Below the pieces are notes generated by a model. The model ran no database searches, was not told where the DNA came from, and saw only the letters and a program-made list of their open reading frames with translations. The position numbers and the translations under genes were made by a program. DNA of 38,587 nt from assembly GCA_947458705.1 (NCBI GenBank), contig CANHAH010000012.1:1-38587 (forward strand), given 5' to 3'. The DNA comes from Opitutia bacterium (GTDB lineage: Bacteria > Verrucomicrobiota > Verrucomicrobiia > Opitutales > Opitutaceae). Shown piece by piece: positions 3,483 to 37,224 of the stretch; the first letter of the stretch is position 1; every line of letters starts with the position of its first letter.

Positions 3483-3594
3483 AGGACCTTCCGGGGGCGG
3501 GGCATGGGATAGGTTTTAACACCCGCTGCGCGGTCGCAACCCTGGATTCCGTTGCGGTGGCTTAGGCACGTTGATGTGCGCCGAGGCTCGGGAC

Positions 3595-4980: not shown

Positions 4981-4991
4981 AATTGTGATCT

Positions 4992-17623: not shown

Positions 17624-18280
17624 TCAAAGTTTATCAACGATGCGATCAGCGAGGCCGTAGGCGATGGCTTCTTTGGCGTTGAGATAGAAATCGCGGTCGG
17701 TGTCGCGGTTAATAACCTCAATAGGTTGGCCGGAGGCTTGGGCGAGAATTTCGTTCAACTCGGCGCGGATTTTTTCCATTTCCTTGGCCTGGATGTTGAT
17801 ATCGGTCGCGGGGCCGACCATGCGGCCGGAGATAAGCGGTTGGTGAATCAATACGCGGGCGTGCGGGTAGAGGAGCCTACGGCCCTTGGGGACGCCGGAG
17901 AGTAGGATCGAGCCCATCGAGGCAGCCATGCCTGTGACAACCACGGTGATCGGGGAGGTGATCAACTTCATCGTATCATAAACGGCCATGCCAGCGGTGA
18001 TGGAGCCGCCGGGGGTGTTGATGTAGAAGGTGATCGGTTTTCCAGGGGCAACGGCTTCTAGGTAAAGGAGACGCTCAGTGATATCCTTGGCGGAGGCATC
18101 GGTTACAGCGCCCCAGAGAAAAATTTTACGTTGCTCGAGAAATTTTTTCTGGATGAGAAGCGCGACGGGCGCGCCGTTTTTCTTACCGGCGGCTTCTTCC
18201 TTTTCGTCGTCGTCCTCGTCCTCGTCATCGAGGCGAGGGATCGGTTCGGAGAGGTTGGGCTGGAGGCTAGAGAAATGCAT
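17624..18280 (-). CDS. clpP: ClpP-family protease subunit with acidic N-terminus
   Basis: I start it at the ATG at 18280 (MHFSSLQPN; 218 residues). The track ORF begins at a TTG overlapping guaD and adds 26 implausible residues. The core is ClpP: FYINTPGGSITAGMAVYDTM, the nucleophile in GMAASMGS, the His in ARVLIHQPL, and the Asp in RDTDRDFYL. It would form a barrel of serine-protease subunits fed by a Clp ATPase. The usual N-terminal axial-loop region is replaced by a strongly acidic stretch (DDEDEDDDEKEEAAGKK, about residues 18-34). That suggests a paralogue with altered gating rather than the housekeeping ClpP. No ClpX or ClpA gene lies nearby. Confidence 0.88.
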   Translation of the reverse strand: MHFSSLQPNLSEPIPRLDDEDEDDDEKEEAAGKKNGAPVALLIQKKFLEQRKIFLWGAVTDASAKDITERLLYLEAVAPGKPITFYINTPGGSITAGMAVYDTMKLITSPITVVVTGMAASMGSILLSGVPKGRRLLYPHARVLIHQPLISGRMVGPATDINIQAKEMEKIRAELNEILAQASGQPIEVINRDTDRDFYLNAKEAIAYGLADRIVDKL

Positions 18281-18354
18281 ATGGTTAAAAGAGTGGTAGG
18301 GAGGTTGGTTTTGGCAAGAGTTGGGACAGGCTTTTGCGGAGAGGGTGGAGGCGC

Positions 18355-18825
18355 TCAATAACGGACTTTATCGGTCTTGGCGGCCCACTCCTTGAATGCA
18401 ATTTGGGCTTCGTCGCGCAGAAACAGCTTCATCTTCACAGTGCGGTGCTCGGGTGGAAGTGGAATTTGTTGGTAAATAAAATCGTCGTCGAACCCGATCG
18501 CGGCTGCGTCGGCGCGGGTGTTGCCGTAAAATATCTGGGGAATCCTTGCCCAGTAAATCGCCGCTAGGCACATCGGGCAGGGCTCGCAACTGGTATAAAG
18601 TTCGCAGTCGGTGAGCTGAAACGTCCCGAGCGCCGTGCACGCATCCCGGATTGCGACGACCTCGGCGTGGGCGGTGGGATCGTTGGTAGAGGTCACGCGG
18701 TTGCTGCCACGCCCCACGACCTCGTTGCGCCGTACGACGACGCAGCCAAACGGGCCGCCCCGCCCCGAACGCATGCCGTTTTCGGCTAATTGCACGGCTT
18801 CTCGCATGAAGGCTGCTTGGCTCAT
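18355..18825 (-). CDS. guaD: Guanine deaminase (cytidine-deaminase fold, GuaD type)
   Basis: A 156-residue cytoplasmic zinc deaminase. The metal site is visible as PTAHAEVVAIR (His plus proton-shuttling Glu) and TSCEPCPMCLAAIYWA (two Cys). The C-terminal GFDDDFIYQQI and the final aromatic residue match Bacillus-type guanine deaminase rather than tRNA adenosine deaminase. It converts guanine to xanthine and ammonia, giving the substrate of the xanthine dehydrogenase encoded 7 kb away. It is transcribed divergently from the ureide operon, sharing a 120-base control region, with clpP following 74 bases after its stop. The start is the ATG at 18825 (MSQAAFMREA). Confidence 0.9.
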   Translation of the reverse strand: MSQAAFMREAVQLAENGMRSGRGGPFGCVVVRRNEVVGRGSNRVTSTNDPTAHAEVVAIRDACTALGTFQLTDCELYTSCEPCPMCLAAIYWARIPQIFYGNTRADAAAIGFDDDFIYQQIPLPPEHRTVKMKLFLRDEAQIAFKEWAAKTDKVRY

Positions 18826-18945
18826 GAGTGTTTCTCGGACATTGTTTTCAAAGCACAGATCGAAATCATTAAAGATCTAGCGTTAGTAAGTGAATGACAC
18901 GAGACAACGCGTAACTCACTCTCCTTGCACCCTTCTTCACATTCC
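18826..18945. promoter_or_regulatory. Divergent control region, guaD / malate synthase-ureide operon
   Basis: These 120 bases are the only gap from which both guaD and the eight-gene ureide operon can be started. A small inverted repeat, AGATC-n12-GATCT (about 18871-18892), is a candidate operator. Arms of five bases are too short to be more than suggestive. No regulator gene is adjacent. Confidence 0.35.
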
Positions 18946-20541
18946 ATGAGCACCACCAACATCGCCGGCCTCGAAATCCGCGGGCCGATCAACGCCGTCA
19001 CTGCTGAGATCCTCACGCCCGCTGCTTGCGAGTTTCTTGCTGGTCTTTTCCGTAAATTCGACGCCCGCCGCCTCGAGTTGCTCGCGCGTCGCTTCGAGCG
19101 CCAACGCCAACTCGACGCCGGCCACCTCCCAGATTTCTTGCCTGAGACTGCCGCTATCCGCGCAGATCTTTCCTGGCGCGTCGCCCCCCCCGCTCCCGAT
19201 CTCAGCGACCGCCGCACCGAGATCACCGGCCCCGTGGACCGCAAGATGGTCATTAACGCCCTCAACTCCGGAGCCAAGGTGTTCATGGCTGATTTCGAAG
19301 ACGCTACGTCGCCGACTTGGGACAACCTGCTCGAGGGGCAACTCAATCTTCGCGACGCTATCCGCCGCACCATTACTTTCATTAGTCCCGAGGGTAAAGC
19401 CTACGCGCTCAAGCCCCAGACCGCTACGCTCGTCGTGCGTCCCCGCGGTTGGCACCTGCCCGAAAAACACGTGTTTCTCGAAGGCAAGCCTGTTAGTGGC
19501 TCGCTCTTCGATTTCGGTCTCTATTTTTTCCACAACGTCAAAGAAGCGCTCGCTCGAGGCACCGGCCCTTATTTTTACCTGCCGAAAATGGAGAGCTACC
19601 TTGAGGCTCGCCTTTGGAACGATGTCTTTATTCACGCTCAAGCCGCCCTAGGCGTCCCGCGCGGTACAATCCGCGCCACTGTGTTGATAGAGACCATCCT
19701 CGCGACATTCGAAGCTGAAGAAATCCTTTACGAACTCCGCGACCACTCCTCCGGCCTAAACTGCGGCCGCTGGGACTATATCTTCAGCTGCATTAAAAAA
19801 CTCAAACGCCGCCCCGGCTACGTGTTCCCTGATCGCACGCAGGTCACCATGACCGCGCCGTTCATGCGCGCTTACTCGCTCTTTGTGATCAAAGTTTGTC
19901 ACCGCCGAGGCGCGCACGCCATGGGCGGCATGGCCGCGCAGATTCCCATCAAGAACAACCCCGCCGCCAATGACGCCGCGCTCGCCAAGGTCCTCGCCGA
20001 TAAAGAACGCGAAGCCTCCGACGGCCACGATGGCACCTGGGTCGCGCACCCCGGTCTCGTCCCGATCGCGCTCCAAGCCTTCGACAAACACATGCCCGGC
20101 CCGAACCAAATCTCGCGCCAGCGTGACGACGTTATCCCCAACGCCGCCGAATTCCTCGCTGCGCCCGTCGGTACCATCTCCGAAGCCGGCGTCCGCACCA
20201 ACCTCAGCGTTGGCGTCCAATACGTCGAAGCCTGGCTCGGTGGCCTCGGCTGTGTCCCGCTTTACAACCTAATGGAAGACGCCGCCACCGCCGAGATTTC
20301 TCGCGCGCAGCTTTGGCAATGGCTCCACACCGGCGCCCAACTCGTCGACGGCCGCATCCTCACCGCCGCGCTCTACGATCAATTTCTGGAGGAAGAACTC
20401 GCCAAAATTAAACACGAAATCGGCGACGATCGTTACCTGCGCGGCCATTTCATCCGCGCGATTGAGATCTTCATGCTCATGGTGAAATCACCGCAGCTCG
20501 ACGAATTCCTCACTCTTCCTGCTTACGAATTACTCGCTTAA
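18946..20541 (+). CDS. aceB: Malate synthase A
   Basis: A 531-residue enzyme from the ATG at 18946; the track's TTG at 18925 adds seven unlikely residues. Family blocks are clear: the start region [31 protein letters not shown], the catalytic-Arg block [44 protein letters not shown], and [15 protein letters not shown]. It condenses glyoxylate with acetyl-CoA to malate. As first gene of the ureide operon, followed 36 bases later by uraD, it most likely consumes the glyoxylate made by the last ureide enzyme rather than serving the classical glyoxylate shunt. No isocitrate lyase gene is present here. Confidence 0.95.
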
Positions 20542-20577
20542 CCGCGCGCATTCCTGCGTCGCGCGCGCCGCTTCTTG

Positions 20578-21093
20578 ATGCTCACCATCGACTCACTCAA
20601 CGCTCTTGATCGCGCGGCCTTCACCGCCGCGCTCGGTCATCTCTTTGAGCATTCGCCGTGGGTGGTCGACGAGACGTGGCCGCGCCGACCGTTTTGTGAC
20701 GCGGCGCACCTCCACGCGGAGCTTTGCGCCACTATGCGTTTCGCCGCCTCCACCCGCCAACTTGCCCTAATCCGCGCTCACCCCGATCTCGCCGGCCGCC
20801 TTGCTCAACAAAACGCCCTCACCGCCGAATCCACCCTCGAACAAGCCAGCGCCGGCCTCCACCGCCTGACCGACACCGAACTCGCCGAATTTCAGCGCCT
20901 CAACACCGCCTATCTCGCACGCTTCGGTTTCCCGTTTATCATCTGCGCTCGGCTCAACGCTAAATCCGCTATCCTCGCCGCGATGACCGCCCGTCTTTCG
21001 CAAACCCCAGAGCACGAATTCACTACCGCTCTTGGAGAAATCGAAAAAATCGCCCACCTGCGTCTCAACGATCTTTTGGAGAAAGCCCTCTGA
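20578..21093 (+). CDS. uraD: OHCU decarboxylase
   Basis: A 171-residue protein from the ATG at 20578; the track starts one codon upstream at a TTG. The OHCU decarboxylase signature is present: the active-site HPDLAGRLA block near residue 64, [14 protein letters not shown] near the N-terminus, and the conserved [10 protein letters not shown] near residue 117. It decarboxylates 2-oxo-4-hydroxy-4-carboxy-5-ureidoimidazoline to S-(+)-allantoin, giving the stereoisomer that allantoinase needs, so no racemase is required. Its stop overlaps the uraH start by one base (TGATG), implying translational coupling. Confidence 0.93.
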
Positions 21094-21443
21094 TGCCCGG
21101 TAAACTTAGCACTCACGTCCTCGATCTCACCACCGGTCGCCCTGCGGCGGGCTTGCGCATCGAGCTCCACCGCCACGCCCCCGGCGCCGCGCCAACGCTC
21201 ATCAAAACCGATGTGACCAACGCCGACGGCCGCACCGACGCCCCGCTGCTCAACGCCGAGGAAATCACCGCTGGCAGCTACGAACTTATCTTTGACGTCG
21301 CCGCTTATTTTGTTTCGCGCGGCATCGCCTCGCCGTTTCTCGATCGCGTGCCAGTCCGTTTCGCCATCGTCGACGCTTCGGCCGGTTATCACGTTCCGCT
21401 GCTCGTCACGCCTTGGGCCTACAGCACGTATCGCGGCAGCTGA
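21093..21443 (+). CDS. uraH: 5-hydroxyisourate hydrolase (transthyretin-like)
   Basis: A 116-residue protein of the transthyretin-related family. It has the N-terminal [24 protein letters not shown] block with the catalytic His, and it ends in the diagnostic YSTYRGS tetrapeptide-type C-terminus. It hydrolyses 5-hydroxyisourate, the product of urate oxidation, to OHCU, the UraD substrate. It is cytoplasmic, as there is no signal peptide or targeting extension. It is sandwiched by TGATG overlaps at both ends, so the three genes uraD-uraH-allantoate amidohydrolase form a translationally coupled block. Its presence implies that urate is oxidised by this organism, although no urate oxidase gene is visible. 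Confidence 0.95.
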
Positions 21444-22687
21444 TGCACGCCTCTGCTCAACTCCTCCTTAGTTACCTCGCCGAACTCGCTCAAGTCACCG
21501 ACGAGCCCGGCCAACTCACGCGTACGTTTCTCTCGCCTGCGATGCGGCGCGCCAACGCGCTAGTCGCTACGTGGATGCGCGACGCCGGTCTCGTGACCCG
21601 CGAAGATACCGTCGGCAATCTGATTGGTCGCCTCGATGTACCCGCCGCGCCGCGCGCGCGCACGCTGTTGCTCGGTTCGCACCTCGACACAGTGCGCGAC
21701 GCTGGACGATTCGACGGCGCTCTCGGTGTGTTGCTGCCCATCGTCGCGATCTCCGAACTGCGTCGACGGGGTGTCACGCTACCGTTTGCTGTCGAAGTGC
21801 TCGGTTTTTCCGAGGAAGAAGGCGTTCGTTTCGCCAGCGCCTACCTGGGCAGTAAAGGCTACTGCGGACAACTTCGCGCCGCGGATCTAAAGCTCACGGA
21901 TGCCGACGGACTCAGCGTTCGCACCGCGCTCAAAACGCTCGCGCCATCTGCTAAACCGTTCGCATTGCCGCGTCGCGCGCACGCCCCGCGCGATCTGCTT
22001 GGTTACGTTGAGATCCACATCGAACAAGGTCCTGTGCTTGACGCCAAGAAACTCGCCCTCGGCGTCGTATCTGCTATCGCGGGCCAGACGCGTGCGAAGC
22101 TCGCCTTTCACGGCCGCGCCGGCCACGCCGGTACCATGCCGATGAATCTCCGCCGCGACGCGCTCGGCGGCGCCGCAGAATTCACGCTCGCCGCTGAAGA
22201 GCTCGCACAACGTACCCCCGGCCTCGTCGCCACCGTTGGCACGATGTCCGTTGCGCCCGGCGCCGCCAACGTCATCCCTGCGACGGCGGCTTTCTCGCTC
22301 GATCTGCGACACCCGAGCGACGTTATTCGCCGCTCCGCGCTTCGGCAACTGCAGGCCGCCGCCGCTCGCATCGCTCGGCGCCGTCAACTCACCTTCACTT
22401 GGACTGCTACACAGGACAACGCCGCAGTCACGTGCTCGCCTGCGCTCACCGCCACGCTCACTGCCAGCGTCCGCGCCTTGCAGGGGAAAACCATCGCGCT
22501 CCCCAGTGGCGCGGGTCACGACGCAGTTGTTCTTTCCGCGCTTACGCCGGTTGCGATGCTGTTCGTGCGCAGTCGCGCCGGTCTCAGCCACCATCCTGAC
22601 GAATTTTCTTCACCAGCCGACATCGAGCTCGCGCTTCAGGTGCTGATCGACTTTCTCGCGCGCCTCGCGCGCACTCACACTTTATGA
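21443..22687 (+). CDS. allC: Allantoate amidohydrolase (M20 family)
   Basis: A 414-residue enzyme from the ATG at 21443, overlapping the uraH stop by one base; the track's TTG at 21413 lies inside uraH. The di-metal M20 ligand motifs are present: LLLGSHLDTV, GRFDGALGV, GFSEEEGVRF, EIHIEQGP and GLSHHPDEF. GRAGHAGTMPM is the dimerisation-domain His block typical of amidohydrolases acting on N-carbamoyl groups. It would convert allantoate to ureidoglycine, CO2 and ammonia. N-carbamoyl amino acid hydrolase is the main alternative for this subfamily. The operon position directly before allantoinase supports allantoate. Its last four bases overlap the allantoinase start (ATGA). Confidence 0.85.
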   Translation: MHASAQLLLSYLAELAQVTDEPGQLTRTFLSPAMRRANALVATWMRDAGLVTREDTVGNLIGRLDVPAAPRARTLLLGSHLDTVRDAGRFDGALGVLLPIVAISELRRRGVTLPFAVEVLGFSEEEGVRFASAYLGSKGYCGQLRAADLKLTDADGLSVRTALKTLAPSAKPFALPRRAHAPRDLLGYVEIHIEQGPVLDAKKLALGVVSAIAGQTRAKLAFHGRAGHAGTMPMNLRRDALGGAAEFTLAAEELAQRTPGLVATVGTMSVAPGAANVIPATAAFSLDLRHPSDVIRRSALRQLQAAAARIARRRQLTFTWTATQDNAAVTCSPALTATLTASVRALQGKTIALPSGAGHDAVVLSALTPVAMLFVRSRAGLSHHPDEFSSPADIELALQVLIDFLARLARTHTL

Positions 22688-24096
22688 AACGCACTACGCT
22701 CGTCTCCAAAAATGCCAAGATCTCGCCCGAGCCTGAGCGTCTCGACCTCATCATCCGCGGCGGAAAGCTCGTCACCCCTGGCGGCGTGATCTGGGCTGAC
22801 CTCGGCGTCAGGCACGGAAAATTTGTCCAGATCGCCCCCGATATTACTGAACTCACGCACGAGACTATCGACGCCAAAGGTCGCTACGTTTTCCCCGGCA
22901 TCATCGATGCGCACGTGCATTTCAACGAGCCCGGTCGCGCCGATTGGGAAGGCCTCGGTTCCGGTTCGGCCGCGCTCGCTGCTGGTGGCGGCACGTGTTT
23001 TTTTGACATGCCGCTCAACTCCGAGCCACCCGTCCTAGACGCCGCTAGTCTTCGCGCTAAGCGCACGCTCGCCGAACAACAATCCTGCGTTGATTTCGCG
23101 CTCTGGGGCGGACTCGTCCCAGGAAACCTCGACAAACTCGCAGGCTTGCGCGACGCCGGAGCCATCGGCCTGAAAGCCTTCATGTGTAACAGTGGAATCG
23201 ACAGTTTCGGTGCCGTCAACGCGACCGTTCTTCGCGAAGGCATGAAGCGCGCCGCCAAACTTGGCATGCTTGTCGCAGTCCATGCCGAAGACGACGCGCT
23301 TGCGGCAAAATTTACCGCAATCGAAAAAGCCAAGGGCCGCAACGATGCTAAAGCCTGGCTTGCCTCTCGCCCTGTCGAAGTCGAGCTCACCGCCATTCGT
23401 ACAGCGCTCGAGCTGGCCGGCGAGACAGGTTGCTCTCTGCACATCGTGCACGTCAGCAGCTCGGAAGGCATCTCGCTCATCTCCGCCGCCCGCGCGCAAC
23501 GCGTCGACGTCACCGCTGAAACCTGTCCGCACTATCTTCTGCTTAACGACAAAGATGTCACCAAACTCGGTGCCGCCGGTAAATGCGCGCCGCCGATCCG
23601 CGACGAAAAAAATCGTCTCGCGCTCTGGACCGAGCTCCGTGCCGGTCGCATTCACACGGTCGGATCCGACCACTCGCCGGCTCCGCCCGTGCTGAAGACG
23701 TCAAAGAACTTTTTCGAAATCTGGGGCGGGATCGGTGGCGTCCAACACGGCGCGCCGTTGCTACTGAACGAGTGCGCCTCGACGATCGAAAATGATTTAC
23801 CCATGCTCGCCGCCGTTCTCGCGCGCAATGTCGCTCGCCGCTTCCGAATCGAGGAGCGTAAGGGCTCCATTGCTCTCGGTCGCGACGCCGATTTCTCGAT
23901 TTTCTCCGTGCGTGAGCCGGAGAAAATTTCTGCCGACGATTTGTGGACGCGTCACCGTACCAGCGTGTACGTCGGTCGCAAAAATCGTACGCATATTTCG
24001 CACACGTTCGTCCGTGGCCAAGCTGCTTGGCGCGACGGCCGCCTCGCGTTGCCTTCGCCCCGCGCCGAATTTCTCCGCCCCGTCGGCCCGCTCTGA
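22684..24096 (+). CDS. allB: Allantoinase
   Basis: A 470-residue cyclic amidohydrolase. Metal-site motifs in order are GIIDAHVHFNEPG, the carbamylated-Lys block AIGLKAFMCNSG, AVHAEDD, HIVHVSSSEG, and the catalytic-Asp block TVGSDHSPAP. The FDMPLNSEPP and GIGGVQHGAP blocks are specific to allantoinase rather than dihydropyrimidinase or dihydroorotase. It hydrolyses S-allantoin to allantoate. Its start overlaps the preceding gene by four bases, and 59 bases separate it from the ureidoglycine aminohydrolase gene. That is the largest gap inside the operon and a possible site for a secondary promoter. Confidence 0.94.
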   Translation: MKRTTLVSKNAKISPEPERLDLIIRGGKLVTPGGVIWADLGVRHGKFVQIAPDITELTHETIDAKGRYVFPGIIDAHVHFNEPGRADWEGLGSGSAALAAGGGTCFFDMPLNSEPPVLDAASLRAKRTLAEQQSCVDFALWGGLVPGNLDKLAGLRDAGAIGLKAFMCNSGIDSFGAVNATVLREGMKRAAKLGMLVAVHAEDDALAAKFTAIEKAKGRNDAKAWLASRPVEVELTAIRTALELAGETGCSLHIVHVSSSEGISLISAARAQRVDVTAETCPHYLLLNDKDVTKLGAAGKCAPPIRDEKNRLALWTELRAGRIHTVGSDHSPAPPVLKTSKNFFEIWGGIGGVQHGAPLLLNECASTIENDLPMLAAVLARNVARRFRIEERKGSIALGRDADFSIFSVREPEKISADDLWTRHRTSVYVGRKNRTHISHTFVRGQAAWRDGRLALPSPRAEFLRPVGPL

Positions 24097-24155
24097 TTTT
24101 ATCGCCGCCCGCCAACCCTCTTGCTGTCCCTGCGTTTCGCACCAATATAACCATC

Positions 24156-24899
24156 ATGTCTGAACTCTTTGGTCACACTCGCGCTCGCGTCGCTGCCCGG
24201 CACGCGCTCATCACCCCCAATAACCACGTCGCCAGTACGCTGCCCGGTTTTACCGATGCGACCGCGGTGGTGCTGATCAGCCCGGTCATGGGCGCGCGGT
24301 TCGCGCAGACGCTGATCACGTTTAACAAAGGCGGCGCGGCCAACGTCGCCGCGAGCGACGTCGAAACCTTCGGCTATTTCATGAGTGGTGGCGGCACGCT
24401 CGGCGTCGGTACTCACCGTCAACGTTGCGAAGCAGGCGGATTTTTCTTCGCCCCTGCGGGACAGGCTTGGACGCTCACTGCGCCTAAATCCGGTACGCAA
24501 CTCACGCTCTTCCAAAAAAAATTCCAACCGCTTGCTGGTGCGCCCGCGCCGCGCGTGATCATCAGTGAAGTCGCTAAGGTCAAAGGCACGCCCTTCCTCG
24601 GCGACCCGGCGGCGAATCTGCAGATGTTGTTGCCCGACGAGCCCGGCTATGATCTGGCCGTTAACATTTTCGCTTATCAGCCCGGTGGACATCTGCCCTT
24701 CGTTGAGTCTCACATCATGGAGCACGGCTTGCTCATGCTTGAAGGCGCGGGGGTTTACCGACTCGAAGACGAGTGGTATCCCGTGCAAGCCGGCGATGTG
24801 ATCTGGATGGGCTCATATTGCCCCCAATGGTTCGTTGCTATGGGCAAGACTCCCGCGCGCTATCTTTATTATAAGGACGTCAACCGCTCCGCGCTATGA
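24156..24899 (+). CDS. allE: (S)-ureidoglycine aminohydrolase (bicupin, AllE/UGHY)
   Basis: I start it at the ATG at 24156 (MSELFGHTRAR; 247 residues). The 318-residue track ORF reads backwards into allantoinase in another frame. It is a two-cupin protein: the N-terminal cupin has FMSGGGTLGVG, and the C-terminal cupin has the near-invariant block FVESHIMEHGLLMLEG followed by YPVQAGDVIWMGSYCPQWF, with the metal-binding Glu/His/His set. It deaminates (S)-ureidoglycine to (S)-ureidoglycolate enantioselectively, avoiding racemic spontaneous decay. Its stop overlaps the next start by four bases (ATGA). Confidence 0.93.
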   Translation: MSELFGHTRARVAARHALITPNNHVASTLPGFTDATAVVLISPVMGARFAQTLITFNKGGAANVAASDVETFGYFMSGGGTLGVGTHRQRCEAGGFFFAPAGQAWTLTAPKSGTQLTLFQKKFQPLAGAPAPRVIISEVAKVKGTPFLGDPAANLQMLLPDEPGYDLAVNIFAYQPGGHLPFVESHIMEHGLLMLEGAGVYRLEDEWYPVQAGDVIWMGSYCPQWFVAMGKTPARYLYYKDVNRSAL

Positions 24900-26155
24900 T
24901 CCAGGCCGCCGCTCCGCTCGCACTCACGGTGGATTCGGCCGCACTCGCGCGGCGCCTGCATGAACTCGCGTTGATCTCCGAGGCACCCGCGCCCGTCGTG
25001 ACCCGCGTGCTGTTTTCGGCAGCCGACCAACGAGGTCGTGACTACGTCCGCCAAACCGCCAGCGAGGCTGGACTTACGATTCGCGAAGACGCGGTCGGAA
25101 ATATTTTCGCGCGCTGGGAAGGCAGTGAACCGACGTTGCCCGCCGTCGGCACAGGCTCGCACACTGATGCGATTCCCAACGCCGGACTTTACGACGGGGT
25201 CGTCGGCGTCTTGGGCGGCTTCGAGGCGTTGCACTCGCTGAAACGTGCGGGCTTTCAACCGCGCCGATCGATTGAAGTGGTGATGTTCACCGCCGAAGAG
25301 CCGACTCGTTTCGGGATCGGTTGTCTCGGTTCGCGCCTGCTCGCCGGAGCTTTGCCGCTCGAAAAAGCCCGTGCGCTTCGCGATCGTGAAGGTCGTTCGC
25401 TGGAGGAGTTGCGCATAGCCGCCGGCTGCCAAGGCGCGCTTGAATCCGTTAAATTGCCGGAAGGTTTTTACCACGCGTTCGTGGAGTTGCACATTGAGCA
25501 AGGGCCGTTGCTCGAGGCGGAAAATATTCCCATTGGTATCGTCGAACATATCGCTGGCCCGAGCAGCTACCGAGTTTCGCTCTTGGGCGAAGGCGGCCAC
25601 GCTGGCGCGGTTTTGATGCCAGGCCGGCGCGATGCTGGACTCGCGGCGGCGGAGATCGCGCTCGCAGTTGAGCACGCAGCGAAAACCAGCGGCAGTCCCG
25701 ATACAGTCGGAACCACCGGCGTATTTCGCATTGAACCTGGGGCGGTCAACAGCGTGCCCTATAGTGCCTATCTTGAAATCGACCTGCGCGACACGCGGCT
25801 CGATACGCGGGAAAAAGCGCTCGGTGAGATCCGTCATGCGGCCGCCGCAATCTGCGCACGCCGCTCCGTGCAGCTCGAGTTTTCTGAAATCAACGCCGAT
25901 CCGCCGTCACCTGGCGACGCCCGTACGATCGCCATCGCTGAGCAAGTCTGCGTGGAACTCGGCCTGCGCCATCGCCGCATGGTGAGTCGTGCGTATCACG
26001 ACTCGCTTTTCATGGCGCGCGTGAGTCCCACGACGATGATTTTTATCCCGTGTCGCAACGGCTGGAGCCACCGCCCCGAGGAATACGCTTCGCCGGATCA
26101 CATTGCCGCTGGCGTAGAAGTCCTTGCGCGCACGTTGGCACGATTGGCGGTATAA
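24896..26155 (+). CDS. Ureidoglycolate amidohydrolase, plant UAH-like (M20 family)
   Basis: A 419-residue M20 enzyme and clearly not a recent duplicate of the other M20 gene in the operon. Its motifs match the plant ureidoglycolate amidohydrolase pattern as I remember it: APAPVVTRVLFSAAD, GSHTDAIPNAGLYDGVVGVLG, FTAEEPTRFGIGCLGSRLLAG, GHAGAVLMPGRRDAGLAAAE, SRAYHDSLFMARVSP and GWSHRPEEYASP. The predicted reaction is (S)-ureidoglycolate to glyoxylate, CO2 and two ammonia. Its position right after the ureidoglycine aminohydrolase (4-base overlap) supports this. The conventional bacterial alternative, urea-forming ureidoglycolate lyase (AllA), is absent. Allantoate or N-carbamoyl substrates remain possible until tested. 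Confidence 0.87.
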   Translation: MIQAAAPLALTVDSAALARRLHELALISEAPAPVVTRVLFSAADQRGRDYVRQTASEAGLTIREDAVGNIFARWEGSEPTLPAVGTGSHTDAIPNAGLYDGVVGVLGGFEALHSLKRAGFQPRRSIEVVMFTAEEPTRFGIGCLGSRLLAGALPLEKARALRDREGRSLEELRIAAGCQGALESVKLPEGFYHAFVELHIEQGPLLEAENIPIGIVEHIAGPSSYRVSLLGEGGHAGAVLMPGRRDAGLAAAEIALAVEHAAKTSGSPDTVGTTGVFRIEPGAVNSVPYSAYLEIDLRDTRLDTREKALGEIRHAAAAICARRSVQLEFSEINADPPSPGDARTIAIAEQVCVELGLRHRRMVSRAYHDSLFMARVSPTTMIFIPCRNGWSHRPEEYASPDHIAAGVEVLARTLARLAV

Positions 26156-26165
26156 GGGCTGCACC

Positions 26166-29100
26166 ATGGCCCTCGATTTCATCCTCAACGGTAAAGCGAT
26201 GCACGTCGAAGGCCTCGCCCCGACGACGACGTTACTTGATTATCTGCGCACGCACGGTTGCACGGGCAGCAAACAAGGCTGCGCCGAGGGCGATTGCGGC
26301 GCGTGCACAGTGGCCATCGTGGACTGCGATGCGCACGGTCAGCCCGCTTATCGCGCGATCAACAGCTGCATCGCGCTTTTGCCGATGTTCGCTGGCCGGG
26401 AGGTCATTACCGTCGACGGACTCGCCGACGGCGCGAAATTACATCCTGCGCAAAGTGCGATGGTTGAGCATTATGGTTCGCAGTGCGGCTATTGTACGCC
26501 CGGTTTTGTAGTCTCGATGTTCGAGGCTTACAACCGCAACGATTGTCAGACATCGGCTAAAATCAGCGATCAACTTTGCGGCAATCTCTGTCGTTGCACC
26601 GGTTATCGACCGATCCGCGATGCCGCGCTCGCTACGGTAGCCCATTGCGGCGCGGATAAATTCAAAGCACGCCTCAAGCAACCGCTCGCGGTCCTGAGTG
26701 AACTCGACTACGCGGTCGCGGGAGAACATTTTTTTCGGCCCACCTCGCTCGCAACTTTGTTTGCTTTGAAGGCGGCTCATCCTGCCGCGCAACTGGTAGC
26801 GGGAGCGACAGAGATCGGGGTGGAGTTGAATAAAAAAGCGCAGGCCTTTCCTCTGCTAATTTCTGTGGAAGCGGTGCCTGAACTTACGCAGATCGTTGAA
26901 ACGCCGACTGCGTGGCGCATCGGTGCCGGCGCGACGCTGACGAATGTCGAAGAGGCTTTGGGAGCGGAGTTTCCGTCGCTGCAAAAAATGCTCTCCGTCT
27001 ATGCGTCGCGCCAAATACGCAATCGCGCGACCCTCGGCGGTAACATCGCGACTGCGTCCCCGATTGGCGACAGCGCGCCGTTGTTGCTGACGTTCGATGC
27101 TGCGTTGGTGCTCACGTCCGCGAGCGGTGAACGCACTGTGCCACTCCAAGATTTTTTTATTGGTTACCGTAAAACCGTATTGCGGGCGGACGAAGTGATT
27201 CGAGAAATCGTCGTTCCGCGCATCGCGTCAGCGGCGGGTCACACGCGCCGAGTGGATTATTTTAAAGTGTCGAAGCGGCGCGAGATGGACATCAGTATCG
27301 TTGCTGGTGCGTTTCTCGTTGAGACCGACCCTACTGGGGTTGTGCAGGTCGCGCGGTTGGCATTTGGCGGAGTAGCGGGGAAGCCGGTGCGAGCGTTGTG
27401 TGCGGAGGCGGCGCTGTTGGGAAAAACGCTCGGTGAAGCAGCGGAGGCCGTGTCGGCAGTGTTGCGCGCGGAATTCACGCCCATCGATGATGTGCGCGGC
27501 TGCGCAGAGTATCGGCGCGGACTGATCGCGAGCTTGTGGGAGAAATTTGTGAGCGGGGAACACAGCCTGGCTCAGGACGGCGCGTTGGATTTTACCGCAG
27601 GCGCACCCGTGCCGCCGACTGATGTGTCGCGAGCGTTGCGGCATGATAGTGCGGTCGGTCATGTGACGGGGCGTGCATTATACGTGGATGACACGGCGCA
27701 GCGCCGGTCTATGTTGGAAGTGTGGCCAGTGATGGCGCCGTACGCCCGAGCGAAGATTGCGCGCCGTGACGCCACAAAGGCGCGGGCGTGTGCGGGGATT
27801 GCGGCGGTGTTGTTGGCGGAAGACATCCCGGGAGAAAACAACGTCGGTCCCGTGCGGCCCGACGAGCCGATGCTCGCGACGGACGAGATTCAATTTCACA
27901 ATCAGATCGTGGCCATCGTTGTTGGCGATTCAATCCGTGCATGCCGCGCGGCAGCGGCGTTGGTGGAGGTGGATTACGTGCCGTTGCCACCGCTACTCGG
28001 CGTTAGGGCGGCGATTGCGGCAGGCAGTTTTCATGCGGCGCCGCACGAACTAGTGCGTGGTGACGTGGTGGCGGCATTGGCTGCGGCGCCCCATAAACTC
28101 GAGGGTGAATTTGAATTTGGCGGGCAGGAGCACTTTTACCTCGAGACGCAGGCCGCCTGGGCGGAGGCGGGCGAAGATGGGACAATATTGGTGCATTCCT
28201 CGACGCAACATCCCTCTGAAATCCAGAACATCGTCGCCGAAGTGCTGCACGTGTCGCGACACAAAGTCGTGGTGCAATCACCTCGCATGGGCGGCGGGTT
28301 TGGCGGCAAAGAAACGCAAGGCAACGGTCCGGCTGCGATCGTCGCGCTTGCGGCGCTAAAAACCGGAAGGCCCGTGCGTTGGCAATTGGACCGTGATGTC
28401 GATATGGCGCTCACGGGAAAACGGCATCCGTTTTGGGCGAAATATCAGGTCGGCTATGATAGTGAGGGCCGTTTGCTCAGCTCACAGGTGGAGCTTGTAG
28501 CCGACGGCGGCTGGTCGATGGATCTTTCTCAGGCGATCTGTGATCGCGCGTTATTTCACTTGGACAATGCGTACTTCATCCCCGCAGTCCGCTTCACAGG
28601 GCGGATTGCGAAAACTAACGTGACGTCGCACACGGCGTTTCGTGGCTTTGGCGGGCCGCAAGGTATGCTCGTAGTTGAAGAGATCGTGGCGTGCATAGCA
28701 GGTCGGCTCGGGCTCGCGCCCGAAATCGTTCGCGCGCGTAATTTTTATCACGGTACCGGTGAAACGAACACGACGCATTACCGCGAAGATATTGGTACTA
28801 ACAGGATTCAAGACGTATGGAATCGCGTCTTAACCGAAGCAGGTTTCGCGGAGCGGCGTCGCGCGATTACTGCGTGGAATGCGCAGAGCGGGCGCGTTAA
28901 ACGCGGGCTCGCGGTGACGCCCGTGAAGTTCGGGATTTCGTTCACGCTAACGCATTACAATCAGGCCGGGGCTTTGGTGCTGATTTATCCGGACGGCTCC
29001 ATACAAGTGAATCATGGCGGCACGGAAATGGGTCAGGGCTTGAACGCGAAGATTCTAGGTGTGGCGATGCGCGAACTCGGTGTAGCTGCGGAAAAAGTCC

Positions 29101-29918
29101 GGTTGATGTCGACGAGTACCGATAAGGTTCCCAACACCTCGCCGACGGCGGCATCGAGTGGTGCGGATCTTAACGGCGCAGCCGTCCGTAACGCGTGCGA
29201 AATTCTACGTGAACGTTTGCGGCCCGTGGCGCTGCATTTGCTCGGTGTAGACGAGTCGGAGGTGCGGGAGTTGGATTTTGCCGCTGACGCGGTGACGGTC
29301 CGCGGACAGCCGACCCGCAGCGTCTCGTTTGCCGCGGTCTGTCAGCGGGCATATCTCGAGCGGGTGAGTCTCTCGACGACTGGTTTTTATAAGACACCTG
29401 GGATTCACTGGGACTGGGCTAAAGCGGAAGGGCGGCCGTTCCATTATTTTTCTTACGGCGCATCAGTTTCTGAGGTGGAAGTGGATGGCTACACGGGTAT
29501 GCATCGTGTGCGACGCGTGGATATCGTGCATGACGTGGGTGATTCGTTGAATCCGGGGATTGATCGCGGACAGATCGAGGGTGGGTTCGTGCAAGGCATG
29601 GGTTGGCTCACGCGTGAAGAGTTAAAATGGGATGCTCAAGGCCGTTTGCTGACGCATAGCGCGAGCACTTATCAAATCCCCGCGTTCAGTGATGCGCCCG
29701 TGGAGATCAACGTCACGCTATTGCCGATGGCACCGCAGCCGAACACGATTCACGGCAGTAAAGCGGTGGGTGAACCGCCCTTGATGTTGGCTTTCAGCGT
29801 GCGTGAAGCTATCCGCGATGCCGTGGGGAATTTCGGTAAGCCTGGGAGGGAAGTGTTGCTCGCATCGCCGGCGACGGGTGAAGCGATTTTTGCTGCCGTG
29901 CAGGCGCGTTTGAAATAA
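26166..29918 (+). CDS. xdh: Single-chain xanthine dehydrogenase (Fe-S, FAD and Mo domains fused)
   Basis: I start it at the ATG at 26166 (1250 residues), 10 bases after the UAH stop; the track start lies inside UAH. Domains in order: plant-type 2Fe-2S (Cys39, Cys44, Cys47), second 2Fe-2S (CGYCTPGF at 107, then CRCTGYRPI), FAD domain about 175-345 (VAGATEIGVEL, LGGNIATASPIGDSAP), FAD C-terminal to about 465, and molybdenum domain about 490-1250. Active-site residues of bovine XDH all have counterparts: Glu802 (GGFGGKE, 716), Arg880 (DRALFH, 794), Phe914 (FRGFGG, 828), Phe1009 (FGISFT, 926) and Glu1261 (KAVGEPP, 1203). This supports hypoxanthine/xanthine oxidation to urate. Most bacteria split this enzyme in two or three; the fused form is eukaryote-like. 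Confidence 0.93.
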   Translation: MALDFILNGKAMHVEGLAPTTTLLDYLRTHGCTGSKQGCAEGDCGACTVAIVDCDAHGQPAYRAINSCIALLPMFAGREVITVDGLADGAKLHPAQSAMVEHYGSQCGYCTPGFVVSMFEAYNRNDCQTSAKISDQLCGNLCRCTGYRPIRDAALATVAHCGADKFKARLKQPLAVLSELDYAVAGEHFFRPTSLATLFALKAAHPAAQLVAGATEIGVELNKKAQAFPLLISVEAVPELTQIVETPTAWRIGAGATLTNVEEALGAEFPSLQKMLSVYASRQIRNRATLGGNIATASPIGDSAPLLLTFDAALVLTSASGERTVPLQDFFIGYRKTVLRADEVIREIVVPRIASAAGHTRRVDYFKVSKRREMDISIVAGAFLVETDPTGVVQVARLAFGGVAGKPVRALCAEAALLGKTLGEAAEAVSAVLRAEFTPIDDVRGCAEYRRGLIASLWEKFVSGEHSLAQDGALDFTAGAPVPPTDVSRALRHDSAVGHVTGRALYVDDTAQRRSMLEVWPVMAPYARAKIARRDATKARACAGIAAVLLAEDIPGENNVGPVRPDEPMLATDEIQFHNQIVAIVVGDSIRACRAAAALVEVDYVPLPPLLGVRAAIAAGSFHAAPHELVRGDVVAALAAAPHKLEGEFEFGGQEHFYLETQAAWAEAGEDGTILVHSSTQHPSEIQNIVAEVLHVSRHKVVVQSPRMGGGFGGKETQGNGPAAIVALAALKTGRPVRWQLDRDVDMALTGKRHPFWAKYQVGYDSEGRLLSSQVELVADGGWSMDLSQAICDRALFHLDNAYFIPAVRFTGRIAKTNVTSHTAFRGFGGPQGMLVVEEIVACIAGRLGLAPEIVRARNFYHGTGETNTTHYREDIGTNRIQDVWNRVLTEAGFAERRRAITAWNAQSGRVKRGLAVTPVKFGISFTLTHYNQAGALVLIYPDGSIQVNHGGTEMGQGLNAKILGVAMRELGVAAEKVRLMSTSTDKVPNTSPTAASSGADLNGAAVRNACEILRERLRPVALHLLGVDESEVRELDFAADAVTVRGQPTRSVSFAAVCQRAYLERVSLSTTGFYKTPGIHWDWAKAEGRPFHYFSYGASVSEVEVDGYTGMHRVRRVDIVHDVGDSLNPGIDRGQIEGGFVQGMGWLTREELKWDAQGRLLTHSASTYQIPAFSDAPVEINVTLLPMAPQPNTIHGSKAVGEPPLMLAFSVREAIRDAVGNFGKPGREVLLASPATGEAIFAAVQARLK

Positions 29919-29920
29919 CT

Positions 29921-30739
29921 CTAGTCGAGCGCGGGACTGCTTGCGCTCACAGTTGCTGCTGTCGAGGCGATTTGGTCGCGAATTTTTAACATTTGGGCTG
30001 CGATACTCAGAGCGATTTCGTGCGGGTGGTTGCTTCCGAAATCTTCGCCAATCGGACAGAAAAATTCTGCAGCGCGTTCAAGCTTGAGGCCGTGGGCCAC
30101 AAGTTCGCGCCGCAGTACAATCGCTTTGGCGGCGCTGCCGATGGCGCCGAGATAGGGAAAGGTGCGCTCGGCGAGGGCGCGTTGAAGGACAGGGCGATCG
30201 CTGGCATGACCTTTTGTCATGCAGAGAACGAAAGCAGTCGCGGGCAACGTGGGAACTAGATCGGCGGGTTGGGCGTGAACAATGATCTGGAGGTTATGGG
30301 CGCGGGGTAGGCGATGCAGCCAGTCGGCCCGTGGGTCGATCACCGTGACGGTACACGCCAGCGGGAGAAGCACGGGCACCAAAGCCTGAACGACGTGGCC
30401 GGCGCCGAAGATAACTATGGGCCACGGACCGGCGGGTGCGTGGGGCTCGAAGTAGAGTTTGACGGAGCCGCCGCAGGTCATTCCGACGTCGCCTTTTAGG
30501 CTCCAATTGACGAAGCGTGGCGTCGTGGAGGAGGCGGCAAGGAGTTCTTGCGCGAGCACGATGGCTTGCGCTTCGACGCGGCCGCCTCCGACTGTGCCTG
30601 AGAGTAGGCCGGCGGGCGTGACGATCATTTTGGCCCCGGTGTCTTGGGGCGTGCTGCCAAGCGCATTGACCAAAATGACGAGGACAAACGCCGCGGACTC
30701 GCGCTCAAGGACGGCGAGTTGTTCGTAGAACGTCGGCAT
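29921..30739 (-). CDS. xdhC: Xanthine dehydrogenase accessory protein XdhC
   Basis: A 272-residue protein of the XdhC/CoxI family, which binds molybdenum cofactor, promotes its sulfuration and inserts it into xanthine dehydrogenase. The N-terminal domain has LVNALGSTPQDTGAKMIV, LLSGTVGGGRVEAQ and VGMTCGGSVKLYFEP, including the conserved Cys. The C-terminal half is Rossmann-like (VIFGAGHVVQALVPVL, VIDPRADWL, CMTKGHASDRPVL). The product surely serves the neighbouring xanthine dehydrogenase, yet the gene is convergent with it, with only two bases between the stops. It sits 29 bases after a DUF1080 gene on the minus strand, so it may be expressed from that transcript. Confidence 0.92.
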   Translation of the reverse strand: MPTFYEQLAVLERESAAFVLVILVNALGSTPQDTGAKMIVTPAGLLSGTVGGGRVEAQAIVLAQELLAASSTTPRFVNWSLKGDVGMTCGGSVKLYFEPHAPAGPWPIVIFGAGHVVQALVPVLLPLACTVTVIDPRADWLHRLPRAHNLQIIVHAQPADLVPTLPATAFVLCMTKGHASDRPVLQRALAERTFPYLGAIGSAAKAIVLRRELVAHGLKLERAAEFFCPIGEDFGSNHPHEIALSIAAQMLKIRDQIASTAATVSASSPALD

Positions 30740-33763: not shown

Positions 33764-34627
33764 TTAGGTCGTAACGAGACGGCCGTTGGTCTGGCGGACC
33801 TGGACGTCGACTTTAAGCAAGCGAGTGGGTGCCCCCCTATACGTGCCGTTGATGGGTCGGATGTCAGCGTAGTCGCGGCCTACGGCGACTTTTACGTACC
33901 GGTCGTCGGCGGGGCGGTCGTGGGTGGGGTCAAAGGCGGCCCAGCCGAAGCCGGGGACATAGGCTTCGATCCAAGCGTGCGAGGCTTCGATCTCGCGCGG
34001 ACGGCGGGTTGTGTTGAAAAAATACCCGCTTACGTAACGGGCGGGTATGCCGAGGCTGCGACAGAGGCCGAGATGGACGTGGGCAAAATCTTGGCAGACG
34101 CCCATACGGAGTTTGAGGGCCTCGTTGGCGCGGGTGCTTACGCCGGTAGTCTTGGGTTTGTAAGTGAACGTGCGGTAGATGTGGCGACCGAGGCGGCAGA
34201 CCTCGTTCCAGACATCGGCCCGGCCGTCACATAGGGCGTCCTGGGCTTCGCGCCATAGCTCAACTTCAAGCGGCACGTAATGGGAGCTGGTGTAAAACTC
34301 GGCGAACATCTCGCGTTCAGCGGATTGTTCGAGATCGGAAGATGAGACGGAGGGGACGGAGGGGCGGTCGTTGTTGGGTGTGGTCTCGACGAGAGATTCG
34401 GCTTCCACGATCAGCTTGGTGTGACCTTCGACGATGTCGAAGTAATGAATCTTGTTGCCGTAAAAATCGCTGTAATCCTGCGGGATTGCGGTCGGCTCGA
34501 GTCGCAAGTCGAAGGTCACGCACTTTTGGAAGGTGTCATCTATGGGGCATAGACGCACTTCGTTGAAGCTGTCGTGTGCTTTGCCAGCGTAGGTGAAAGA
34601 CGTGCGGTGTAGGATGCTCAGGTGCAT
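33764..34627 (-). CDS. Transglutaminase-like cysteine-protease-fold protein
   Basis: A 287-residue protein of the bacterial transglutaminase-like family. The N-terminal beta-domain (LSILHRTSFTYAGKAHDSFNEVRLCP, about 1-140) precedes the catalytic core. The triad is visible as GVCQDFAHVHLGLCRS (Cys), IEASHAWIEAYVPG (His) and WAAFDPTHD (Asp). These proteins usually act as peptidases or amidases rather than crosslinkers. It is cytoplasmic by lack of a signal peptide. It is third in a run with the circularly permuted ATP-grasp and alpha-E genes, a combination conserved across many bacteria and proposed to make and process a small peptide or amide tag. Its start lies 63 bases after the alpha-E stop. 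Confidence 0.9.
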   Translation of the reverse strand: MHLSILHRTSFTYAGKAHDSFNEVRLCPIDDTFQKCVTFDLRLEPTAIPQDYSDFYGNKIHYFDIVEGHTKLIVEAESLVETTPNNDRPSVPSVSSSDLEQSAEREMFAEFYTSSHYVPLEVELWREAQDALCDGRADVWNEVCRLGRHIYRTFTYKPKTTGVSTRANEALKLRMGVCQDFAHVHLGLCRSLGIPARYVSGYFFNTTRRPREIEASHAWIEAYVPGFGWAAFDPTHDRPADDRYVKVAVGRDYADIRPINGTYRGAPTRLLKVDVQVRQTNGRLVTT

Positions 34628-34693
34628 GGGCCAAGCGGCGACTTAATCAGGTGCACGGTCGGCCCGGTCGCAAAGGCAATTATTGCGTAGCTA

Positions 34694-35695
34694 CTACTGT
34701 TGTTGCTGTTGCTGCTGTAGCTCGGTGCTCGATTCGGCCGGATAAAACATGGTCGTTTGTACTACTTCTTCGCTGATGATATCTAGTGTGGTCTGCACCT
34801 GTTGGAGGAATTCGTGAAGGCCTTGGTCGATGATTTCGGTAATGCTCAAGGATTGCAGATCGGCAAGCAGACGGCGGGCAGCGCGGGCGGCATCGGATTT
34901 TGGGCGGGCGCCGGTTTCGCTCAAGATTCGGCGGAGAAAATCGTCGATCTGGGCCACGCAGTAGTGGAGCGAGCGGGGAAAGGAATCAGAGAAGATGAGA
35001 AACTCAGCGGCCTTCCAAGGCAGGATGGCGCTGACGTGCGCACGGCGGTAGGCTTCAAGAGCGCTGGCGGAGCGAAGTACTGCTTGCCATTGCGCGGTGT
35101 CGACGGCGCCGCCGACGTCAGAGGCATTGGGGAGTAGGATGTGATATTTGACGTCGAGGATACGCATGGTCTTGTCGGCGCGCTCGATGTATTTGCCGAA
35201 CTGGATGAACTCCCAGCCTTCGCTACGGGAGTAAGTGGCGCTGGTGAGACCTTGGAAAAGATGAGAGGCTTGTTTGATGCGCGCAAAAAATTCGTGGGGG
35301 CCACCCGCCCAGACCTCGGTGGTATTTTGCGATTTAAGGTAAAGATGGAGTTCGTTGATCGTCTCCCACATCTCGGCGGAGATTTGGTCGCGTATCATGC
35401 GGGCGTTTTCACGGGCGGCGAAGACGCACGCGAGGATTGAGCCGGGGTTGCGCAGGTCGAAGGCGAGGAATTCGGTGACCGTGCGGCTGTTGGCGGTTTT
35501 GTAGTGCTCGGCGAATAGTTTTTCTTCGCCCGTGCTTAGTATAATCGAGTCCCAGTGGTCCTTGAGGCTGGCATCGTTAAGGCCTTGAAAATCTAGGAGG
35601 AACTGGAGGTTGACCTCTAGGAGACGTGCTATGTTTTCGGCGCGCTCTATATATCGGCTCATCCAATACAGCGAGTGTGCTACGCGTGAGAGCAT
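34694..35695 (-). CDS. Alpha-E (DUF403) domain protein with polyglutamine tail
   Basis: I start it at the ATG at 35695 (MLSRVAHSLYWMSRYIERAENIARLLEVN), which is the usual family N-terminus; the track starts at a GTG 16 codons upstream. The rest (about 333 residues) is all-helical alpha-E, with WEFIQFGKYIERADKTMRILDVKYH as second signature repeat and FLIFSDSFPRSLHYCVAQID. The family always travels with circularly permuted ATP-grasp and transglutaminase-like proteins; its biochemical role is unsettled. The C-terminus ends in LQQQQQQQ, encoded by mixed CAG and CAA codons, followed by two consecutive TAG stops. That tail is not part of the family core. Confidence 0.88.
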   Translation of the reverse strand: MLSRVAHSLYWMSRYIERAENIARLLEVNLQFLLDFQGLNDASLKDHWDSIILSTGEEKLFAEHYKTANSRTVTEFLAFDLRNPGSILACVFAARENARMIRDQISAEMWETINELHLYLKSQNTTEVWAGGPHEFFARIKQASHLFQGLTSATYSRSEGWEFIQFGKYIERADKTMRILDVKYHILLPNASDVGGAVDTAQWQAVLRSASALEAYRRAHVSAILPWKAAEFLIFSDSFPRSLHYCVAQIDDFLRRILSETGARPKSDAARAARRLLADLQSLSITEIIDQGLHEFLQQVQTTLDIISEEVVQTTMFYPAESSTELQQQQQQQ

Positions 35696-35775
35696 CACGT
35701 TGGCCTGTGGTCGTGAGGGCGGGAGTTTAGGTGCGGATGGCACAGTAAAAATTTATAAGGGTGGACGCGGCGGTT

Positions 35776-37224
35776 TTATTCGTCGCCCTGAAGGACCCAA
35801 GTGTCTTTGGAGCCGCCACCTTGGGATGAATTGACCACTAGCGAGCCCTTGCGGAGGGCTACGCGCGTAAGACCGCCAGGGGTGACAGTAATTTTTTTCC
35901 CGTATAGGATGTAAGGACGCAGATCGATGTGACGGGCTTGGAGTTCGCCTTCGCAGTAGGTGGGTGATCGTGAGAGGGCGATTGGATCTTGAGCGATAAA
36001 GTTGCGGGGGTTGGCGGCGACTTGGGCACGGAAGCTCTCGCACTCGGCTTTAGTGGAGGCTGGGCCGATCAACATACCGTAGCCGCCGGCTTCATTCGCG
36101 GATTTCACGACGAGCTTAGAAATATTTTCGAGGATGTATTTCCGGTTGAGTGGATCGGAGGCGAGGTAGGTGTTTACGTTGGCTAAGATGGGTTCTTCGC
36201 CGAGGTAGTATTTAATAATTTTTGGTACGTAGGCGTAGATAACTTTGTCGTCGGCGACACCGGTCCCAATTGAGTTGGCGAGAGCAACGTGGCCAGCGCG
36301 GGCGGCGCCAACGAGTCCGGGGACTCCGAGCAAGGAGTCGGCGCGGAATACGGTGGGATCGAGGAAGTCATCGTCGATGCGGCGGTAGATGACGTCGACC
36401 TGGACGAGGCCAGCGGTGGTGCGCATGTAGACTTTGGATTCACGTACGACGAGGTCGCGGCCTTCAACAATCGGGATGCCCATCTGCCGGGCGAGGAAAG
36501 TGTGCTCGAAGTAGGCACTGTTGTAGACGCCAGGGGTGAGAAGCACGACGTTGGGTTTATCGGTGCGATCAGGCGCGAGGTAGAGGAGGGATTTGAGGAG
36601 CGAGTCGCCGTACGTCTCGACTGGTCGCACGCCGTAGCTAGAGAAAAGATCAGGAAACGCTCGGCGCATCGCGACGCGGTTCTCGAGCATGTAGGAGGCG
36701 CCGGAGGGACAGCGCAGGTTATCCTCGAGGACGAGGTAGTTACCCGCGTGGTCGCGGATTAGATCGGTGCCGCAGATGTGAACGTAGATGTCGCGCGGGA
36801 CATTGAAGTTCATAAACTCACGGCGAAAATGTTTGGCTCCTAGGATGAGCGCGGCGGGGACGATTTTATCCTTCAGGATTTTTTGGCCGTGATAGAGATC
36901 GTGAAGGAAAAGATTGAGCGCGGTGATGCGCTGGATGAGGCCGGCTTCCAGTTTGGCCCATTCCCGACTTGGAATAATGCGCGGTATGAGGTCGAAGGGG
37001 AAAATACGCTCGGTGCCCTCGGAGTCGTTATAGACGGTGAACGTGACGCCGCGGCGCAGGAACGCGAGGTCCACGGCAGCGCGGCGCTGGTTGAAGTCGG
37101 AAGCGGGTAGCGTGGTAAGACGCTCGGCGAGACGGCGATAATGAGGGCGGACTGTTTTGCCGTTGGGTTCGAACATCTCGTCGAAGAAGGAGTCGACGTC
37201 GTAGGTGGTGCTGATGAGCGACAC
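35776..37224 (-). CDS. Circularly permuted ATP-grasp protein (DUF404/DUF407)
   Basis: A 482-residue protein with the family hallmarks: an N-terminal [104 protein letters not shown] and [16 protein letters not shown]. The enzyme should ligate a carboxylate to an amine using ATP. The GTG at 37224 is the best start because an in-frame stop lies 10 codons upstream and the conserved DEMF block is near the N-terminus. It leads the ATP-grasp/alpha-E/transglutaminase run, with 80 bases to the alpha-E ATG. The substrate is unknown. Confidence 0.9.

Follow-up and report, generated by a model that had tools for sequence, protein, structure and literature searches.

A malate synthase gene heading a purine catabolic gene cluster in Opitutaceae probably encodes a purine-dedicated glyoxylate sink

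The presence of malate synthase is usually read as a sign of the glyoxylate shunt, and precedents for a purine-linked malate synthase are known from yeast (DAL7), from Streptomyces and perhaps from Deinococcus. For yeast DAL7, the role described is the removal of surplus glyoxylate (PMC3646786). In Streptomyces sp. SirexAA-E the malate synthase SACTE_5472 lies, going by locus tags, seven tags from the regulator SACTE_5479, the S. coelicolor homolog of which is linked to allantoin genes (PMC12772271). A 2025 paper on Pseudomonas aeruginosa regarded malate synthase as inappropriate for allantoin-derived glyoxylate, given that no acetyl-CoA is co-produced. Here, we compare these systems with a locus of an Opitutia bacterium (Opitutaceae, Verrucomicrobiota). 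The whole stretch of DNA that was analysed, called the window, covers positions 1 to 38,587 of contig CANHAH010000012.1 (assembly GCA_947458705.1).

Genes were named by NCBIfam models with their curated cut-offs, supplemented by PDB searches and trees. The original prediction of eight plus-strand genes at 18946-29918 was confirmed in order and identity; seven of them exceed the curated cut-offs, and the exception, UAH, was assigned by PDB search and tree. The row begins with aceB for malate synthase A (18946..20541), which matches TIGR01344 over its full length (profile 1-510 of 511; 812 bits, cut-off 594.5) and has the malate synthase 3CUX as best PDB entry (731 bits). It is followed by uraD for OHCU decarboxylase (20578..21093; TIGR03164, 198 bits, cut-off 96), uraH for 5-hydroxyisourate hydrolase (21093..21443; TIGR02962, 123 bits, cut-off 87), aah for allantoate amidohydrolase (AAH, 21443..22687; NF006775, 508 bits, cut-off 479), allB for allantoinase (22684..24096; TIGR03178, 506 bits, cut-off 358), ughY for (S)-ureidoglycine aminohydrolase (UGHY, 24156..24899; TIGR03214, 288 bits, cut-off 200; 167 bits to the ureidoglycine aminohydrolase 4E2Q), uah for a plant-type (S)-ureidoglycolate amidohydrolase (UAH, 24896..26155) and xdh for a fused xanthine dehydrogenase (XDH, 26166..29918). 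Most of these genes had been said to overlap by 1-4 bases. Read from the sequence, this is true for four of the seven junctions, i.e. uraD/uraH and uraH/aah (one base each, aah ATG at 21443) as well as aah/allB and ughY/uah (four bases each), but not for aceB-uraD (36 nt gap, uraD ATG at 20578), allB-ughY (59 nt) and uah-xdh (10 nt, xdh ATG at 26166). From the tight spacing and the conserved order we infer that the eight genes are co-transcribed as one operon; the gaps of 36 and 59 nt could give room for internal promoters. On the minus strand, guaD (18355..18825; best PDB 1TIY/1WKQ with 172 bits, next 124) encodes the guanine deaminase that converts guanine to xanthine and is divergent from aceB, with 120 nt between them (18826..18945) as the presumed promoter region for both, and xdhC (29921..30739; TIGR02964, 170 bits, cut-off 161.6) encodes the molybdenum cofactor insertion factor for XDH and converges with xdh at a distance of 2 nt. 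Both genes hold the same places in relatives and belong to the purine unit, which is wider than 18946-29918.

The XDH is a single polypeptide, in which residues 18-475 match TIGR02963 (XdhA, 495 bits, cut-off 467) and residues 501-1261 match TIGR02965 (XdhB, 980 bits, cut-off 850). Its best PDB matches are animal-type fused XDH/XO chains with 860 bits, compared to 709 bits for a Rhodobacter-type chain B. One fused XDH chain is also the eukaryotic form. Of the Verrucomicrobiota purine loci tested, nearly all show the fusion, and the enzyme is split in an acidobacterial locus (L132) and in genome G410. The urate oxidase of the own genome is a PuuD-type membrane enzyme (PF06181, 442 bits) with a CXXCH cytochrome motif, encoded in trans on another contig (C196), and the same type occurs in two relatives. 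A cofactor-free uricase was rejected as the urate oxidase, because no PF01014 match was found. The purine-to-glyoxylate route is therefore complete in the genome but not in one operon, and the term "self-contained", applied earlier to the module, has to be dropped: PuuD is encoded elsewhere, the operon contains no purine transporter, and guaD and xdhC stand outside the eight-gene row.

Altogether, we consider it highly probable that the locus is an Opitutaceae purine catabolic operon which scavenges nitrogen, with malate synthase removing the glyoxylate. As judged from homology, GuaD would convert guanine to xanthine, from which the fused XDH, matured by XdhC, would produce urate. The PuuD-type membrane cytochrome c urate oxidase would then act on urate, and UraH, UraD, AllB, AAH, UGHY and UAH would carry the product onward to glyoxylate, so that ammonia would account for all four nitrogens and CO2 for three of the carbons, with urea absent. 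Finally, malate synthase would convert the glyoxylate, which is toxic, to malate at the expense of acetyl-CoA derived from other food. Nitrogen is most likely the main benefit, and the two leftover carbons would be made harmless, respired, or fed into the TCA cycle to replenish it beside another carbon source.

It had also been proposed that purines serve as a carbon source. That the operon allows the cell to meet its carbon, nitrogen and energy demand from purines alone, via malate formed from glyoxylate and acetyl-CoA, appears unlikely to us, even though malate synthase is encoded together with the pathway, a glycerate kinase gene (4992-6197) is located 13 kb upstream, and P. aeruginosa is able to grow on allantoin as sole carbon source (PMC12694930). 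This growth of P. aeruginosa requires the gcl-hyi-glxR cluster and is lost in the absence of the carboligase cluster (PMC12694930), whereas glyoxylate carboligase exceeded the cut-off in none of 12 genomes, the own one and 11 others. The best carboligase match of the own genome reached 311 bits against a cut-off of 711, with similar values in relatives, and such matches would represent acetolactate-synthase-type paralogs. Malate synthase spends one acetyl-CoA per glyoxylate, and remaking acetyl-CoA from malate loses two CO2; hence, from glyoxylate alone the cell obtains energy but no net gain of carbon. Such a gain would require another acetyl-CoA source or a putative glycine/serine route. The claim of a carbon source is thus not sustained, since without isocitrate lyase or carboligase glyoxylate alone leads to no net C3 or C4 compound, and nitrogen scavenging with glyoxylate disposal provides the better fit.

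Very unlikely is the reading that aceB encodes a general malate synthase of the shunt, or one using glycolate-derived glyoxylate, and neighbours the purine genes only by chance. The glyoxylate shunt is the role in which malate synthase A is best known, and in two genomes, G013 and G316, isocitrate lyase indeed adjoins aceB, but the distribution of the genes argues against this reading. Of 388 Verrucomicrobiota genomes, 10 have aceB (TIGR01344 over cut-off), 21 have UGHY and 9 have both (hypergeometric 6e-12, a value that ignores the kinship of the genomes). All eight genomes of the window's family with aceB over the cut-off have the purine pathway; in seven, the purine genes and aceB lie on one contig, 3.6-4.6 kb apart, and in the eighth (G492) they are split by contig ends. 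Isocitrate lyase over the cut-off was detected in none of these eight genomes including the own one, all of which gave only superfamily matches of 18-43 bits, whereas it was present in all three aceB genomes without the shared purine cluster (G013, G316 and G402; G013 is counted although its aceB scores below the cut-off), a difference with a Fisher p of 0.006. With the own genome at about 81% completeness, these absences rest partly on relatives, among them G492 with 96% and the complete G154. Because isocitrate lyase and carboligase are both undetected, aceB seems to be dedicated to the glyoxylate from purines. Furthermore, the aceB sequences of 12 Verrucomicrobiota purine loci form one clade (98/99) apart from the lyase-linked ones, and this clade includes Chthoniobacterales and Pedosphaera MAGs with other cluster arrangements.

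The adjacency is also kept within the family. The neighbourhood search for aceB beside uraD-uraH in Verrucomicrobiota, suggested along with the original prediction, returned the same arrangement in Opitutaceae relatives, in which the order guaD/aceB-uraD-uraH-aah-allB-ughY-(uah)-xdh/xdhC is preserved, guaD adjoining aceB wherever the contig of an Opitutaceae locus reaches that far. An order conserved in relatives is not due to chance. The core order uraH-aah-allB-ughY-uah-xdh is common to other Verrucomicrobiota, and in the sampled loci aceB as first gene of the operon is confined to Opitutaceae. However, aceB is not obligatory, since it is missing from the cluster of one relative (G306). Outside the phylum, a Leptospiraceae MAG (L147 9244-17414) carries ughY-uah-uraD-uraH-aceB-moaC-moeA-moaA in a row, where moaC, moeA and moaA beside aceB are genes for the cofactor needed by XDH. 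Co-occurrence, conserved adjacency, missing isocitrate lyase and the separate clade thus support the functional tie between malate synthase and the purine pathway, and point to aceB as probably a purine-dedicated glyoxylate sink rather than a shunt enzyme. Moreover, we lean towards the view that a separate Verrucomicrobiota malate synthase lineage left the shunt and became the terminal ureide enzyme without isocitrate lyase or carboligase, and that a similar cluster was put together in a Leptospiraceae bacterium around an aceB of another lineage. If so, the absence of both enzymes would tie purine breakdown to acetyl-CoA from other food.

No UAH-specific NCBIfam model recognized the uah product, and a PDB search and a tree were used to assign it. 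Its best solved match is the Arabidopsis ureidoglycolate hydrolase 4PXE (464 bits, 55% identity), and the next family, N-carbamoylase, reached 258 bits. A tree of 42 family members unites 22 UAH candidates, the window's and the Arabidopsis enzyme among them, in one clade (100/99) and the allantoate amidohydrolases, with the window's AAH, in a separate one (100/100); two more UAH candidates (G325, G412) are placed outside the UAH clade. Pairs of ughY and uah occur in purine clusters of at least six phyla, namely Verrucomicrobiota, Acidobacteriota, Deinococcota, Chloroflexota, Planctomycetota and Spirochaetota. That the gene instead encodes an N-carbamoyl amino acid hydrolase or a second allantoate amidohydrolase, so that the pathway ends otherwise, is the least likely of the alternatives. 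It would accord with the difficulty of assigning the M20 hydantoinase/carbamoylase family by annotation, with the allantoate or N-carbamoyl hydrolase models that score best in NCBIfam without reaching their cut-off, and with the relatives whose clusters lack UAH; against it stand the clear preference for plant UAH in bit score, the shared clade and the ughY-uah adjacency in six phyla. AllA-type ureidoglycolate lyase (PF04115) was found neither in the own genome (G000, about 81% complete) nor in G080 or G154. Together with UGHY over its cut-off and the clade shared with Arabidopsis, this supports the predicted plant-style route via UGHY and UAH. UAH releases two ammonia and CO2 from ureidoglycolate (Percudani et al. 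2013, PMC3793230), hence the whole route yields four ammonia, three CO2 and glyoxylate, and, by established chemistry, the enzymes of this operon would release all four purine nitrogens as ammonia without forming urea. However, UAH is not specially a plant enzyme, with the Arabidopsis sequence nested inside a wide bacterial clade. To call the organization of the operon unusual was therefore overstated, given the plant-type UGHY-UAH clusters in at least six phyla and the purine-linked malate synthase of yeast.

In several Opitutaceae relatives UAH has left the cluster. G154 retains one elsewhere in the genome, and in G080, G419, G501, G306, G311 and G473 (loci L033, L096, L097, L098, L099 and L102, not listed in the order of the genomes) no UAH was found beyond their allantoate amidohydrolase at E 1e-80. 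An AllA lyase as replacement was ruled out for G080 and G154, which lack PF04115. In the same two genomes, the junction between uraH and aah, which overlaps by one base in the window, is an insertion site for unrelated ORFs: G080 has an HNH endonuclease-like one there (L033 10387-10947) and G154 an unassigned one (L031 15062-15622). In G473, an LrgA/LrgB pair (L098 11403-12556) is situated between ughY and xdh, where the window has UAH. LrgB relatives in plants carry glycolate/glycerate, and by analogy this pair may transport glyoxylate-related acids.

In the window and in eight relatives, the intergenic region between guaD and aceB measures 109-188 bp. The TGACA element that lies about 50 nt ahead of aceB is found again in relatives, in several of them as TGCTGACA, and is a possible promoter or regulator site. 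No match to the sigma-70 consensus was obtained in 18826-18945; the promoter scan gave fewer matches than shuffled sequences. Neither a regulator nor a purine transporter is conserved beside the cluster in the window and its relatives; the search for a transporter beside guaD revealed trypsin/PDZ protease neighbours in G154 and G306 and an unassigned neighbourhood in G473. In the window, a ClpP-type protease gene (17624-18358) overlaps guaD by four bases, and such a gene is also found near guaD in several relatives. Further away are three other gene groups: a minus-strand run at 1731-6197 with a sodium:solute symporter, a NamZ exo-muramidase and the glycerate kinase mentioned above, perhaps for the use of muropeptide sugars; an AMP-binding acyl-CoA synthetase gene followed by an overlapping MatC-type dicarboxylate carrier gene (8738-11460), resembling matB-matC of malonate use; and a recurrent set of consecutive genes for a transglutaminase-like protein, an Alpha-E protein and a circularly permuted ATP-grasp protein (33764-37224).

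The unusual element of the locus appears to be a malate synthase lineage that serves purines and not the glyoxylate shunt. Since aceB here marks purine nitrogen use without detected isocitrate lyase, inferring the shunt from malate synthase by itself would give wrong results in Opitutaceae. Moreover, Opitutaceae appear to use malate synthase for purine glyoxylate despite the objection raised for P. aeruginosa. Compared with the plant ureide pathway (AAH, UGlyAH and UAH of Arabidopsis, soybean and rice), the operon shares three ammonia-releasing steps, the lack of urea and an orthologous UAH (55% identity, one clade), but it is a bacterial operon that includes malate synthase, a fused XDH and guaD, and depends on the urate oxidase PuuD instead of cofactor-free uricase. 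UGHY-UAH operons of Verrucomicrobiaceae, Acidobacteriota and Meiothermus (e.g. L122, L132 and L128) have the core uraH-aah-allB-ughY-uah in common with it; however, they contain no aceB, and XDH is split outside Verrucomicrobiota. The "plant" ammonia-releasing ureide route is hence a widespread bacterial one. Streptomyces differs from the operon by using allantoicase and also gcl. The second malate synthase of Deinococcus (Dgeo_2611/DR1155) belongs to a distant lineage and is accompanied by another malate synthase. The allantoin and gcl clusters of E. coli and P. aeruginosa, which are induced by allantoin, likewise place nitrogen and carbon arms near each other (PMC12694930), but there carboligase converts glyoxylate to glycerate and supports growth on allantoin carbon, whereas the operon has malate synthase instead. 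The yeast DAL cluster resembles the operon in that malate synthase (DAL7) is co-located with allantoin genes (PMC3646786; PMC3743077). In contrast to the operon, it starts at allantoin and employs allantoicase and ureidoglycolate lyase, so that urea is formed, and for the shunt yeast additionally possesses isocitrate lyase and another malate synthase. With these differences, the operon represents a bacterial counterpart to yeast DAL7.
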